A stretch of 56,463 nt of DNA, from assembly GCA_000431535.1 (NCBI GenBank), contig HF991822.1:197912-254374 (forward strand). The letters are read 5' to 3'. Below, in pieces: positions 3,167 through 8,716 of the stretch; the stretch's first letter is position 1; each line of letters opens with the position of its first letter. The position numbers and the translations under genes are program-made. The notes beneath the pieces are model-generated. The model had not been told where the DNA came from. It worked only from the letters and a program-made list of their open reading frames with translations, and did no database searches. Source of the DNA: Clostridium sp. CAG:678. GTDB taxonomy: Bacteria > Bacillota > Clostridia > Oscillospirales > Acutalibacteraceae.

Positions 3167-4090
3167 TTATTTCCATTTTTGGATCACTGCAGGATCGTTA
3201 AAAATCTCATTCAATCTATTGATCATAGGAACGCAATCGCCATAGTCAAGCGAACGGTGGTCAATTGCACATGTCAGCGGCAAAATGGAGCGGATCTCAA
3301 TCTTCTCATTGCCGTTTTCATCTGTAACCACCCAAGGCTTTCTTTGCACTGCGCCTATACAAAATGCAGTGGTCTGCGGAGGAATGATTTCAAGAAGATA
3401 ACAGGTGCCTTTGTGGGTTCTGCCGATTGATCCAATATTGGAGATGGTGGTAGTTCCTTGCTCAATATCATACTTTGTCAGTCTGTCCTTCTTTGAAATA
3501 GAATAATATTTCTTTTTTTCTCTGCCGCTTAATGTTTTAACTTTGTGTTTTCCAGGCATTTTTGAGCCGTAGAGTCTGCGAATCGTTTGCTTAACCTTTC
3601 CTTTTTTTAGACCTTTTATTGTGTTATCCATTGACACTTCAAACATTACTTCGTTAAGGTCAGTGTTATTTGCACGGCGAATTGTGTCATTTAAAGCGTC
3701 AGTCATTTCAGAAAGTGACTTGTTTTCCATATTGTGCATATTGACAGTCATCATTTCTCCGTTATGAAGGATCATCGGCATAGAGATATCAATATTATCA
3801 TGGTAATATAAAGTACCGCGCACAAGTTTTCTGTTAAATTCCAGTGTACAGTTCATTTTTGGCGCTGCTTTAAGACCTTCGCAGATAATTTTAAGCACAA
3901 CTGTATTTATGCTTATCTTTTTACTCTTGTCCGTAACGCCTTCATTCAGTTTTTTAATCTCTTTCAGCAAGTCAGTAACATCAGCGTCATAACTCATCGT
4001 TGCATGGGGAATTTCTTCCCAGCTTTGAGAAGTCATGTTGGAAACAATCTTTCTTGCGATCCCGAAATGTTCTGTTTTGTAAATTGCCAT
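3167..4090 (-). CDS. Stand-alone 2-oxo acid dehydrogenase E2-type acyltransferase (307 aa)
   Basis: The protein has the chloramphenicol-acetyltransferase/E2 catalytic fold only: there is no lipoyl domain or subunit-binding domain and no E1/E3 gene nearby. The catalytic-domain start (RKIVSNMTSQSWEEIPH) and the active-site motif DHRSLDY (277-283) are present. The family signature is DHRxxDG, so the Gly after the Asp is Tyr here. Residues 155-205 form a basic insertion rich in Lys. Such orphan E2 proteins occur in Clostridia with unknown substrates; the two CoA-transferases next door suggest acyl-CoA use (inference). The ATG has a strong TTAGGAG site. The first ~30 residues, the RBS and about 30 bp upstream are closely similar to the start of the neighbouring CoA-transferase gene (4215-5582). 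Confidence 0.75.
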   Translation of the reverse strand: MAIYKTEHFGIARKIVSNMTSQSWEEIPHATMSYDADVTDLLKEIKKLNEGVTDKSKKISINTVVLKIICEGLKAAPKMNCTLEFNRKLVRGTLYYHDNIDISMPMILHNGEMMTVNMHNMENKSLSEMTDALNDTIRRANNTDLNEVMFEVSMDNTIKGLKKGKVKQTIRRLYGSKMPGKHKVKTLSGREKKKYYSISKKDRLTKYDIEQGTTTISNIGSIGRTHKGTCYLLEIIPPQTTAFCIGAVQRKPWVVTDENGNEKIEIRSILPLTCAIDHRSLDYGDCVPMINRLNEIFNDPAVIQKWK

Positions 4091-4140
4091 TATTTTACTC
4101 CTAACCCTTAATTATTGTTAAATCAAAAACAACAAAACTT

Positions 4141-4169
4141 ATTATAACATAAATGATCAATCATAGCAA
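4141..4169 (-). promoter_or_regulatory. Putative sigma-A promoter of the E2-like gene
   Basis: Reading the minus strand, TTGCTA (4164-4169) and TATAAT (4141-4146) are separated by 17 bp and lie about 50 bp upstream of the start codon. The E2-like gene therefore probably has its own transcript although it is downstream of the CoA-transferase. Inferred from consensus match only. Confidence 0.5.
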
Positions 4170-4214
4170 TACAATCTTTTACAGAAATATAAATTTGTTA
4201 AAAACGCTGCTGAT

Positions 4215-5582
4215 TTAATCAAAGGCTTTTTCATGAAAACGGTTTTCAAATTCCGCTTCAAGCATAGGTCTGAATTTCGGGTGAGCAATTTTAATAAGTT
4301 CTCTTGCTCTTTCCTTAAGCGTTCTGCCTTTAAGGTATGCGATTCCGTATTCTGTAACAACACAGTGAACATCGTTTCTGGTTGTTGTAATTGCCGAATA
4401 TTTGGTTATCTTTGGCACGATTTTAGAAACTGTGTCATTTTTCGTGGTAGAAGTCATAGCGATGATTGATCTTCCGTTTTTGCTGTGGGCTGCGCCGCGA
4501 ATAAAATCTACCTGACCGCCGACTGCGGAGACCTGTGATAACCCAATCGTGTCCGCAACTACCTGACCTAAAAGGTCGATCTGTAAGCATGAATTTATTG
4601 ATACTACGTTATCATTCATAGCAATAACATAGGGGTCATTCACATAATCAATGGGGTGCATTTCAACTGCCGGATTATCATTTATATAATCAAATAGTAT
4701 TTTGGAGCCGAATGCAGCGCCAAGCACGGTCTTACCCTTATGTAACTGCTTTCTTTTATTGTTTATAACGCCCGATTCAAGAAGTTTAACAACGCCGTCG
4801 CCAACAAGTTCACTGTGAAGCCCTAAATCTTTTTTATCTCCGAGTTCTTCACAGATAGCATCCGGAATTCCGCCTATGCCGAGTTGGAGGCAGTCGCCGT
4901 TGTTTATCAGAGAGGAACAATTTTTACCTATCTTTCTTTCAATATCCGTAATTTCAACAGATTTTACTTCCGGAAGCGGTTCGTCTATCTCAACAAAATA
5001 TGTAAAGTCTCTAACGTTTTTAGTGCTGTCACCTAAAGTTCGGGGAACATATTTATTTACTTGGGCTATAACCACCTCAGTGTAATCTGTTGTGCCCTTT
5101 GTGTAATCAACGGTGGTACCGAATGACACGTTACCGTGAGAATCGGGAGGGGAGACCATACAAACTGAAACACGCGGCCTGATAAAATCTCTTATAACTT
5201 CGGGAATTTCACTGAAGTTTATCGGAGTAAAATCTGCCACACCGCTTGCTATGTGCATTCTGTTACTATTTGAAGCAAACAGGCAGTTCAATGTAAAATG
5301 CCCTTCCATTTCCGGTCTGCACCAGGGAGAACTGCCGAGTGAAAGCATATTTACTATTTTTACATCGTGAAATCTTTTATAATTTTCAATTAAAGCCCTT
5401 TCAATTCCAAAAGGTTCACCGCAGGCAAAACCGGTAACAACTGTGTCACCGTCTTTAATACTTGTGATTGCTTCTTCAGCGCTGACTAATTTGCTTTTGT
5501 AAATTTCTTCCCAACTTCGGGAAACAGTATTGTAAACATCCTTTTGAACATCCACAGAATGTTCTGCTTTGTAATTCCCCAT
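4215..5582 (-). CDS. Acetyl-CoA hydrolase/CoA-transferase family protein (butyryl-CoA / 4-hydroxybutyrate type), copy 1
   Basis: This is a class I-type CoA-transferase of the Cat2/AbfT/But group, which moves CoA between acyl-CoA and acetate or another carboxylate. The catalytic Glu lies in GLHSELVGDG; the CoA-binding LQLGIGGIPDAI and the C-terminal TEYGIAYLKGRTLKERA motif are intact. A frame extends upstream to a TTG at 5600, but the ATG at 5582 has the AGGAG site six bases upstream and is preferred (455 aa). Compared with the tandem copy 2 it carries an extra N-terminal leader of about 22 residues (MGNYKAEH...) that resembles the start of the E2-like protein. The rest is strongly similar to copy 2, so this is a tandem duplication. 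Butyrate-forming or 4-hydroxybutyrate role cannot be decided by eye. Confidence 0.85.
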   Translation of the reverse strand: MGNYKAEHSVDVQKDVYNTVSRSWEEIYKSKLVSAEEAITSIKDGDTVVTGFACGEPFGIERALIENYKRFHDVKIVNMLSLGSSPWCRPEMEGHFTLNCLFASNSNRMHIASGVADFTPINFSEIPEVIRDFIRPRVSVCMVSPPDSHGNVSFGTTVDYTKGTTDYTEVVIAQVNKYVPRTLGDSTKNVRDFTYFVEIDEPLPEVKSVEITDIERKIGKNCSSLINNGDCLQLGIGGIPDAICEELGDKKDLGLHSELVGDGVVKLLESGVINNKRKQLHKGKTVLGAAFGSKILFDYINDNPAVEMHPIDYVNDPYVIAMNDNVVSINSCLQIDLLGQVVADTIGLSQVSAVGGQVDFIRGAAHSKNGRSIIAMTSTTKNDTVSKIVPKITKYSAITTTRNDVHCVVTEYGIAYLKGRTLKERARELIKIAHPKFRPMLEAEFENRFHEKAFD

Positions 5583-5644
5583 TGTTTTACTCCTAACCAA
5601 TCATTATTGGATTGCCTTGTTTTATAAACAAAAGCAACGCAGAT

Positions 5645-5673
5645 ATTATATCATGGTTAGATTATAAAAACAA
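5645..5673 (-). promoter_or_regulatory. Possible promoter of CoA-transferase copy 1
   Basis: On the minus strand TTGTTT (5668-5673) and TATAAT (5645-5650) are 17 bp apart, about 60 bp upstream of the ATG at 5582. The layout is the same as that in front of the E2-like gene. The -35 match is weak. Confidence 0.35.
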
Positions 5674-5715
5674 TATAATTTTACAATAATAAAAATTTGT
5701 TTAAATTAGTGTCCG

Positions 5716-7020
5716 TTAATCAAAGGCTTTTTCATGAAACCTTTTTTCAAATTCCTCAGAAAGCCAGTCTCTGAAATTGGGGTGCGCAACTTTAATGAGC
5801 GCCCTTGCTCTTTCCTTTAAAGTTCTGCCTTTAAGGTAAGCAATGCCGTATTCGGTTACAACGCAGTTCACATCATTTCTTGTTGTGGTTACTGCAGAAT
5901 TTTCCGTGATCGTGGGCACAATCTTGGATATCGTATCATGCTTGGCTGTAGAGGGCATGGCTATGATCGACCTGCCGCCCTTGCTCATGGTAGCGCCGCG
6001 AACAAAATCAACCTGCCCGCCAACACCAGAAAACTGTGTCAGCCCAATTGTGTCGGCAACAACCTGACCCATTAGGTCTATCTGTATGCAGGAGTTGATC
6101 GAAACCACATTATCATTTTTCGCAATATTTGGCGGATAATTGACATAGTCGATAGGGTACATTTCTATATCTTTGTTATTATTCATGTAATCAAATAATT
6201 TTGTAGTGCCGAACGCGAAGCCAAGTATTGTTTTCCCTTTGTGCGTTTGCTTTTTAGAATTGTTGATAACGCCGCTTTTAAGCAGGTCTACAACGCCGTC
6301 TCCAACCATTTCAGAGTGCAGGCCAAGATCTTTTTTGCTTTTCAGTTCTTCGCATATTGCATTTGGAATCCCGCCGATACCAAGCTGCAGGCAGTCCCCG
6401 TCATGAATCAGAGAAGCGCAGTTGCGTCCGATTGCTTTTTCTACATCGGTAAGCTCCACGGAAGGCACTTCCGGCAGCGGGTGATCGCATTCCACAAAAT
6501 AATCAAATTCACTGATATGCTTTCTTGCCTTGCCGTATGAGCGCGGCACATATTTATTGACCTGTGCAATCTTAAGCTCACAGTGAGACATGGTTGGCTC
6601 AATGTAATCTATATTTGTTCCTAAAGAAACATATCCGTCTTCGTCCGGCGGGCAAACGGAATATAAACCCACTCTCGGTTTGATGATTTCTTTCAGCACC
6701 ATAGGTATTTCATAAAAATGGCAGGTCGTAAAATCAGCAATCCCGCTTGAAATTGCTTTTCTGTTGCTTGCCGAAGCAAAAAAACTGTTGTATTTTATAT
6801 GACCTTTCATTTCATCACGCACCCAGGGCGTGTCCCCAATGATCAGCATATTTATAATCTCAACATTTTTGTAATTCAGATAATTTTTTTCTATGGCGCG
6901 CTCTATTCCCAGCGGTTCGCAGCAACCGAATGCAGTCACCACTTTATCTCCGTCTTTGATCAAACCGGCGGCGTCTTCGGCGGTTATAACTTTGCTTTGG
7001 TAGAGTTCTTTGTTGTCCAT
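5716..7020 (-). CDS. Acetyl-CoA hydrolase/CoA-transferase family protein (butyryl-CoA / 4-hydroxybutyrate type), copy 2
   Basis: 434 aa, the usual length for the Cat2/AbfT/But family, with a normal N-terminus (MDNKELYQSKVITAEDA). The catalytic Glu sits in GLHSEMVGDG, followed by the glycine-rich QLGIGGIPNAI CoA site (upstream of the Glu) and the C-terminal TEYGIAYLKGRTLKERA block. The ATG at 7020 follows GGAGG with a 6-nt gap. It lies between the SCIFF maturase gene (96 bp upstream) and the related copy 1 (133 bp downstream), all on the minus strand. The two paralogues may have diverged in acyl substrate; members of this family are terminal enzymes of butyrate formation or of succinate/4-aminobutyrate fermentation (family knowledge). 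Which one applies here is not visible. Confidence 0.85.
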   Translation of the reverse strand: MDNKELYQSKVITAEDAAGLIKDGDKVVTAFGCCEPLGIERAIEKNYLNYKNVEIINMLIIGDTPWVRDEMKGHIKYNSFFASASNRKAISSGIADFTTCHFYEIPMVLKEIIKPRVGLYSVCPPDEDGYVSLGTNIDYIEPTMSHCELKIAQVNKYVPRSYGKARKHISEFDYFVECDHPLPEVPSVELTDVEKAIGRNCASLIHDGDCLQLGIGGIPNAICEELKSKKDLGLHSEMVGDGVVDLLKSGVINNSKKQTHKGKTILGFAFGTTKLFDYMNNNKDIEMYPIDYVNYPPNIAKNDNVVSINSCIQIDLMGQVVADTIGLTQFSGVGGQVDFVRGATMSKGGRSIIAMPSTAKHDTISKIVPTITENSAVTTTRNDVNCVVTEYGIAYLKGRTLKERARALIKVAHPNFRDWLSEEFEKRFHEKAFD

Positions 7021-7116: not shown

Positions 7117-8508
7117 TTAATAAACAATTTTCAAATTTTCTTCCGCTTCTGCAACTTTGAGCATTACGGCGCATTCTATTCTTTTTCTGTGCAGTTCGCA
7201 GCCGAATTCATATATGCCGGAAACACTGCCCGTAGAATGGTAAGCGTTTGCAGCGCAGCCGCCGCTACAGTACAGTTTTGCAAAGCAGTCCTTGCATTCT
7301 TTGTGAGAATAAACATTGCAGTTTTCAAACTGCGAAAGAACCTGCTTGTTTTTTACGCCGTGCCAGATATCGCCGAGCAGAAATTTATCATCCCCCACAA
7401 ACTGATGGCAGGGGTATAATTCACCGTCCGGCGTAACTGCCATATACTCCGTGCCGACCCCGCAGCCGGAAACCCGTTTCACGATGCACGGGCCTGCGTC
7501 AAGATCTATCATATAATGATAAAATGTAAAGCCACTGCCGTTTCTGTATCTTCTGAGCATCTCGTTTGCAAGGATCTCATACTGTTCTTTTAATACCGGC
7601 AGATCGCTTTCTTTCAGCGCATAATCCTCCTCCGGGGCGCAGACAACAGGTTCTATGGAAAGTTCTTTAAATCCCAGGTCCGCCATATGGATCACGTCTT
7701 TGGAAAAGTCTGTGTTATAATGCGTATAAGTGCCGCGCATGTAGTAGTCTTTTTGGTTTCTGGATTCGGCAAATTTTTTAAATTTATCAATGATCAGGTC
7801 GTAAGAACCGGTGTTTTTTCTCGTAATTCTGAGGCGGTCATGCGTTTCTTTTCTGCCGTCAAGGGATAATACAACATTTCCCATTTCCTTGTTGCAGAAA
7901 TCCATGATTTCATCATTTAGAAGCACACCGTTGGTTGTAACGGTAAATCGGAATTTCTTGTTGTATTCCTTTTCGCGGCTTCGCCCGTACGCAACCAGTT
8001 TTTTGCAAACTTCCCAGTTCAGGAGCGGTTCGCCGCCGAAAAAATCCACTTCAAGATTATGCCTTGTTCCGCTCTGCTCAATCAGAAAATCAAGCGCTCT
8101 TTTGCCGGTCTCAAAACTCATCAGACCTTTCGGTCCGTCATATTCGCCTTTACCGGCAAAGCAGTATTTGCAGGCAAGGTTGCAGTCGTGCGCCACATGA
8201 AGGCAGATTGCTTTTAATACGCCCTGTCTCTTTTTAAATTCAGCCGCGGTCATTTCAAAAGTGTCTTCTGCAAACAGACGGCCTTCTTTTTTTAAGTCTT
8301 CTATGTCCAGAAAGCAAAGGTCAATATCTTCCGGTGTAACGTCATCTTTCTCTTTATATTTATCTAATATGAAAGTTTTGATGTTTTCTTTGCTCTCCGT
8401 TTCATATCTTGTGATGATATCATATGCCACTTCGTCCACAGAGTGCACGCAGCCGCTGTTTTGATCTATGATAATATTATAGCCGTTCATTTTGTAGGCA
8501 TGAATCAT
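7117..8508 (-). CDS. SCIFF peptide radical-SAM maturase (CcpM/CteB-like)
   Basis: 463 aa radical-SAM/SPASM protein that installs thioether crosslinks in the SCIFF peptide encoded just upstream. The SAM-cluster motif CNLACKYC (C109, C113, C116) is followed by the GGEPLLNW strand. The C-terminal SPASM region has CGVGTEY, CHQFVGDD and the CKDCFAKLYCSGGC block that binds auxiliary [4Fe-4S] clusters. The N-terminal ~90 residues match the peptide-recognition (RRE-like) part of this family, beginning MIHAYKMNGYNIIID. The start ATG has a GGAGA site. Its gene is 61 bp downstream of the peptide gene, with a hairpin between them. Assignment rests on both the motifs and the adjacent precursor. Confidence 0.9.
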   Translation of the reverse strand: MIHAYKMNGYNIIIDQNSGCVHSVDEVAYDIITRYETESKENIKTFILDKYKEKDDVTPEDIDLCFLDIEDLKKEGRLFAEDTFEMTAAEFKKRQGVLKAICLHVAHDCNLACKYCFAGKGEYDGPKGLMSFETGKRALDFLIEQSGTRHNLEVDFFGGEPLLNWEVCKKLVAYGRSREKEYNKKFRFTVTTNGVLLNDEIMDFCNKEMGNVVLSLDGRKETHDRLRITRKNTGSYDLIIDKFKKFAESRNQKDYYMRGTYTHYNTDFSKDVIHMADLGFKELSIEPVVCAPEEDYALKESDLPVLKEQYEILANEMLRRYRNGSGFTFYHYMIDLDAGPCIVKRVSGCGVGTEYMAVTPDGELYPCHQFVGDDKFLLGDIWHGVKNKQVLSQFENCNVYSHKECKDCFAKLYCSGGCAANAYHSTGSVSGIYEFGCELHRKRIECAVMLKVAEAEENLKIVY

Positions 8509-8569: not shown

Positions 8570-8716
8570 TTATTTTTTCAGCTGCTCGCACTTCTGATTT
8601 GCAACGGAGCAAGATGTTTTGCTTGCAGACTGGCAGGATGTCTGGCATTCGCCGCAGCCGCCTTTTTTAGCAGATTCGCAAAGATTGCGTGAGCTTAACG
8701 TGTTGATTCTTTTCAT
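8570..8716 (-). CDS. SCIFF family six-cysteine ribosomal peptide (48 aa), variant
   Basis: This small gene was read directly from the minus strand: ATG at 8716, TAA at 8570. The product starts MKRINTLSSRNL and contains CGECQTSCQSASKTSC, the near-invariant core of the SCIFF (six cysteines in forty-five residues) family. Cysteines are at 13, 21, 24, 28, 36 and 43, six in total. In the family core QSACKTSCT (from memory) the Cys of SAC and the Thr after the last TSC form the characterised thioether; here both positions are Ser (QSASKTSCS), while an unusual extra Cys appears at 13. The start has a GAGG site 11 nt upstream. The maturase gene follows directly. SCIFF is a hallmark of Clostridia; its biological role is not known. 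Confidence 0.9.
   Translation of the reverse strand: MKRINTLSSRNLCESAKKGGCGECQTSCQSASKTSCSVANQKCEQLKK

Follow-up and report, generated by a model that had tools for sequence, protein, structure and literature searches.

The locus raises the question of why a CoA-transferase should open with the upstream region and first codons of its neighbour, an acyltransferase of unrelated fold. It lies in a stretch of 56,463 nucleotides from Clostridium sp. CAG:678, the whole of which is called the window here. Four genes follow one another on the minus strand of the window: a SCIFF peptide maturase, two CoA-transferases (C2 and then C1) and an E2-type acyltransferase (E2).

7117..8508, minus strand: SCIFF peptide maturase (radical SAM/SPASM), the next gene upstream; TIGR03974 at 736 bits, cut-off 425
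5716..7020, minus strand: CoA-transferase copy 2 (C2), 434 aa, without the leader; of the other lineage (the type of relatives G031 and G023)
4215..5582, minus strand: CoA-transferase copy 1 (C1), 455 aa, with an E2-derived N-terminal leader; PF02550 and PF13336
3167..4090, minus strand: stand-alone E2-type acyltransferase, 307 aa, the source of the leader; PF00198

The reading favoured here, at a probability of roughly three in four, is that C1 is a junction gene made by ectopic exchange at a microhomology coding for WEEI, that it now has signals derived from E2 and a nearly neutral leader, and that C2 is a CoA-transferase of a second type.

The domain borders of the two proteins place the shared segment differently in each. 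The sole Pfam match of E2 is PF00198 (2-oxoacid dehydrogenase catalytic domain, E 1.1e-37), which starts at residue 10 and thus inside the leader stretch; H278 and D282, which we take to be the HxxxD motif, are invariant in a 22-row alignment. E2 resembles the catalytic core of pyruvate dehydrogenase E2 (PDB 1b5s, 4n72), with which it aligns from residue 9 in the early core, but it differs in standing alone, and since no lipoyl domain was found among its Pfam matches up to an E value of 0.001 it is not a full E2 component. For the CoA-transferases, the gathering cut-offs of PF02550 and PF13336 (AcetylCoA_hydro/transferase domains) are exceeded, while the scores against TIGR03948 (butyryl-CoA:acetate CoA-transferase), 308.9 and 327 bits, fall below its curated cut-off of 674.8. 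All 20 of the 20 sequences matched in the PDB align from C1 residue 23 or later; members of the 4-hydroxybutyrate CoA-transferase family (PDB 3d3u, 3gk7) cover residues 23-450 and 23-451, nearly the whole chain, whereas the 22-residue leader of C1 falls outside the family borders. Elsewhere in the genome there are two more stand-alone E2 paralogues (G000:C32:143138-144058 and G000:C37:287203-288120; 71% and 67% identical), which lie apart from its two CoA-transferase genes, and directly upstream of the SCIFF maturase, at 8570-8716 on the minus strand, is a 48-aa ORF with six cysteines that is presumably the SCIFF peptide.

The N-terminus of C1, MGNYKAEHSVDVQKDVYNTVSRSWEEIYKSKL, and that of E2, MAIYKTEHFGIARKIVSNMTSQSWEEIPHAT, align ungapped with 14 identities over 27 residues, a score reached by none of 100,000 shuffles. 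The first-pass annotation had the identities and the coordinates right and gave the span as 29 residues, which is two too many. It had also counted the SWEEI block towards the similarity. The block is indeed identical in the two proteins, but most CoA-transferases of these groups have W-x-E-I or similar just past the start and E2s have S-W-x-x-I at residues 23-27, so that a WEEI-like stretch is natural to both families and the block by itself is no evidence. With Met-1 and SWEEI removed, residues 2-22 still hold 8 identities, a score reached in 3 of 100,000 shuffles.

The likeness continues in the DNA through the ribosome binding site, as had been noticed, but it does not end about 30 bp upstream; it takes in the whole intergenic region and the final 24 nt of the CoA-transferase ORF upstream, which are identical in C1 and C2 and form the longest identical run between them.

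5502..5739, minus strand: duplicated tract copy A; C2 3' end, intergenic region, ribosome binding site and C1 leader as far as WEEI
4010..4238, minus strand: duplicated tract copy B (source); C1 3' end, intergenic region, ribosome binding site and E2 codons 1-27
5590..5596, minus strand: ribosome binding site TTAGGAG of C1
4098..4104, minus strand: ribosome binding site TTAGGAG of E2

The intergenic regions, of 132 nt before C1 and 124 nt before E2, give a gapped local alignment over nearly their full length with a score of 51, and this was reached by none of 2000 dinucleotide shuffles (maximum 40); when the last 25 nt, at the ribosome binding site end, are removed the score is 44, again reached by 0 of 2000. 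Among 86 upstream regions taken mechanically from the ORFs of the window, the query and the E2 region included, the query scored 248 against itself, the E2 region 51 and the next best 30. In a tree of the whole tract (3' end, intergenic region and leader; 278 columns, six rows, 200 bootstraps, with G079 left out), the copy before C1 groups with the upstream region of the window's own E2 at 98% bootstrap; the leader alone gives the same grouping at 96% and the intergenic region alone at only 39%. A chance or convergent likeness of the two N-termini could draw on the fact that the usual W-x-E-I makes the similarity look greater than it is, but it is hardly credible given the shuffles of the residues and intergenic DNA outside that block, the low scores of unrelated upstream regions and the support for the tract: chance is excluded by the shuffles, the window controls and the tract tree. 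The statistical significance that the first-pass annotation had left in question is thereby borne out.

The direction of copying is seen from the relatives on either side. E2 was found in 73 of 80 genomes of the genus, and in the 42 homologues counted, two of them the genome's own paralogues (L129, L130), leader residues 9, 11, 13-16 and 18-20 never vary, while Y4, K5, E7 and H8 occur in 11, 34, 33 and 29. These 42 come from 44 distinct homologues; L135 and L136 were dropped owing to a late match start and an SW that is not at that place, and both retain FGIxRKIVxNMT on reading. The rows were selected by SW, so the invariance of SW is uninformative. Fourteen E2 matches in the genus have open frames of 511-636 aa, and the two that were read (L137:620-2212 of G017 and L139:675-2195 of G048) carry, after an E2-type catalytic domain, a tail in which K, E and A are very abundant; it has about 200 residues and is likely a coiled coil or a single helix.

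Among CoA-transferases the leader was seen in C1 only. It is in none of the 33 related loci of named genomes, whose CoA-transferases begin M-x-W(K/Q/E)(E/D)IYxSKL or a variant. Of 80 genomes of the genus, 57, the window's included, have a CoA-transferase match, and outside C1 no match starts before query residue 15; among the 56 other genomes the N-termini were read in 36 and the remaining 20 were judged by match start (loci L086-L118 were entered as match rows only). Across the family, a search with residues 1-96 matched 14 of 200 genomes, again including the window's, and outside the window only G247 (from residue 10, 36% identical) and G232 (from residue 6, 30%) start before residue 15, both with an internal stop. 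L010, a candidate whose match runs from residue 4, was set aside, as the residues in question precede its own start (IYMTWNEIYQ) and form no clear leader. The database check proposed in the first-pass annotation has thus returned no second leader-bearing CoA-transferase, and its claims that a 5' module with its translation signal was copied onto an unrelated fold, and that it passed from E2 to the CoA-transferase, both stand: the leader is conserved in E2s and unseen in other CoA-transferases, which makes it an E2 segment that C1 acquired by copying.

The two genes are neighbours irrespective of the leader. E2 adjoins the CoA-transferase in all 28 named loci whose downstream DNA is long enough to show it, the leader being absent there; the other 5 of the 33 (L016, L022, L026, L035, L037) end inside the CoA-transferase or too soon past it to show E2. 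In 17 of the 33 the upstream flank examined includes the SCIFF maturase, and its adjacency is not constant. One genome, G049 (L119, L044), has two cassettes of SCIFF maturase, CoA-transferase and E2 on different contigs with different CoA-transferase types, which is either a duplication or a strain mixture. The pairing of a CoA-transferase with a lipoyl-less E2-type acyltransferase (3167-5582 in the window, and its relatives), often near a SCIFF maturase, is a conserved neighbourhood that may deserve separate study.

C2 lacks the leader, as the first-pass annotation had stated and as reading its sequence confirms, and its ancestry bears on how C1 arose. C1 and C2 are 67% identical and are not each other's closest relatives: C1 groups with G051 (82%) and G050 (78%), and C2 with G158 in a first tree (100/99) and with G031 and G023 once these were added in a second. 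The first tree excludes the genome's own loci L001-L005, L068-L070 and L082, duplicates and proteins of at most 380 residues; the second excludes identical sequences. Against the G031 gene C2 shows 80 and 86% identity over two parts, and against the G023 gene 81% over most of the length (72% over the last 50 residues), and the C2-type genes of G031 and G023 directly follow the SCIFF maturase. Two CoA-transferase types therefore share one slot across species and both are present here; C2 is no recent twin of C1 but a member of another lineage, at home at the same locus in other species. Its 5' UTR shows no significant similarity to those of five relatives.

A simple tandem duplication in this species, taking in the CoA-transferase and the E2 start and deriving both copies from one gene, would account in one event for the presence of two CoA-transferases, for the additional intergenic region and for a leader on the downstream copy only, and the tract borders fit it. 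It is nevertheless unlikely, since the trees place C2 with G158, or with G031 and G023, outside the C1 clade, and since sites common to C1 and C2 but unlike all four relatives make up 1.5-2.8% over the body of the gene as against 3 of 34 at the extreme 3' end. As the sole event, plain tandem duplication is rejected on these trees and counts; at least one further event is needed, because C2 is only 67% identical to C1 and sits in another clade.

The E2 gene of this lineage is the most likely source of the leader, and the copying would date from about the time when the lineage separated from G051, its nearest relative by SCIFF maturase. pS is 0.52 between the leaders of C1 and E2 and 0.60 between the E2 leaders of the window and G051, which makes the event about as old as that split or somewhat younger. 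The leader tree may understate the age of the event, because C1 is placed differently in the two trees (with G050 at 86/51 in one, outside G050 and G051 in the second, for which no supports are shown) and because its identity to G051 is 82% as against 95% for the maturase (E2, 86%). An origin of the leader in the E2 of a C2-type species, G031 for instance, is disfavoured: over two 75-column blocks the copy matches the E2 upstream region of G031 at 57 and 51% and the window's own at 66 and 77%.

C1 changes from E2-like to CoA-transferase sequence at a run of 12 nt that is identical in E2.

5502..5513, minus strand: junction in C1, TGGGAAGAAATT (WEEI)
4010..4021, minus strand: the identical 12 nt in E2, TGGGAAGAAATT

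The short WEEI stretch is common to the two genes by coincidence, and it is likely the site of an ectopic join. Across the 36 loci compared, no relative has the full 12-nt identity between its two genes; the close relative G050 comes top with 14 of 21 nt matching at the junction, and G051 matches at 11 of 21 with no run longer than 3. This comparison drops 8 of the 44 E2 rows, two without a CoA-transferase row of their own locus and six failing the patterns.

The favoured exchange would have joined the E2 5' region to a CoA-transferase at the WEEI-coding microhomology near both N-termini, either by unequal crossover or through a conversion tract primed by the homologous 3' ends of the CoA-transferases. 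Two orders of events may be envisaged: an unequal crossover at the junction brought the two cassette types together, or C2 and C1 were tandem neighbours beforehand and the stretch from the C1 3' end to the E2 start was copied by a conversion tract. In either case C1 would have gained the promoter-like region of E2, its ribosome binding site and about 22-27 codons, its own start codon being replaced. Given that the genome is a draft of 41 contigs, it could be asked whether the arrangement is an assembly artefact or a strain mixture; this is very improbable, as the site is interior to a 290 kb contig, the genome has a completeness of 98.49% and a contamination of 0.11%, and the tract copies have diverged rather than being identical.

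The consequence for C1 can be read from its start. Most relatives begin with M-x-W or something close to it, whereas C1 has S-W, its native start being lost in an in-frame fusion, and between codon 1 and codon 79 it has no ATG and only a GTG at codon 10, so that translation is very likely to begin from the E2-derived ribosome binding site. As the upstream region of C1 is a copy of that of E2, C1 is a case of a captured start and a putative captured promoter, and both regions hold a promoter-like sequence at the matching place.

4141..4169, minus strand: promoter-like TTGCTA-17-TATAAT upstream of E2, with TG before the second hexamer; from the promoter scan, suggestive only
5645..5673, minus strand: promoter-like TTGTTT-17-TATAAT at the matching place upstream of C1; from the sequence

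The scan required 4 of 6 in each hexamer, for which reason the C1 site is unlisted, and over the region it gave no excess over shuffles (13 sites, 13.4 expected). The copied region may nonetheless be active as a promoter, and the likely outcome of the exchange would be transcription as well as translation of C1 from E2-derived signals. Shared expression of C1 and E2 is plausible, both the promoter-like sequence and the ribosome binding site having been copied.

The first-pass annotation had suggested a docking segment, and the retention of the leader to bring CoA-transferase and E2 together, or to mark both for one partner, would agree with the preserved YK-x-EH, with a frame that is still open and with the constant adjacency of the two genes. 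It is highly unlikely for four reasons: first, the part of the leader most conserved in E2s is what C1 has lost, as of the 10 positions within 9-20 that are at least 95% conserved it keeps 3 and has lost 7. Second, over codons 9-22 pN between C1 and E2 is 0.44 against a pS of 0.61 (0.03 and 0.64 between the E2s of the window and G051), and over the leader pN is 0.26 as against 0.02 between those two E2s, at similar pS. Third, the other CoA-transferases adjacent to an E2 lack the leader. Fourth, in E2 the stretch is the beginning of the catalytic domain match. These results tell against the docking proposal and fit a near-neutral extension in C1 that would not be needed as an E2 surface, although for a single leader-bearing sequence weak constraint is possible. 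That the leader gives the CoA-transferase any new property, be it contact with E2 or a shared partner or coupled regulation, is equally doubtful; if it did, a start module moved between unrelated folds would have become a working adaptor. An unusual change in C1 was also considered and rejected, as it departs from 8 of 176 columns conserved at 95% and its relatives from 0-14.

The favoured reading, a junction gene with captured start signals, has partial counterparts in two reports. In long-term evolution of E. coli, citT came under the rnk promoter through a tandem duplication whose junction makes a fusion ORF (PMC5918244); there too a duplication junction sets a neighbour's promoter before a metabolic gene with a fusion ORF, but C1 carries its captured start as an in-frame fusion with the enzyme, the two parts meet at a short coding similarity, the event dates far back and the upstream copy comes from another lineage. 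Illegitimate recombination at 9-bp microhomology borders gives tandem copies (PMC11111574), comparable to the 12 nt common here, although those joins were engineered and selected and that of C1 is natural. A limited literature search found no related bacterial case of promoter capture, and it is not claimed that none is published.

In summary, no new biochemical system follows from the finding, and C1 is a natural and older case of a known kind of gene remodelling, not a novel system for protein docking. It is a readable one, in which a gene has exchanged its promoter-like region, ribosome binding site and first codons for those of its neighbour, and for which the source, the copy, the borders and the unaltered relatives are all available. 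It suggests as well that at one locus, beside a stand-alone E2-type acyltransferase, two lineages of CoA-transferase replace each other.
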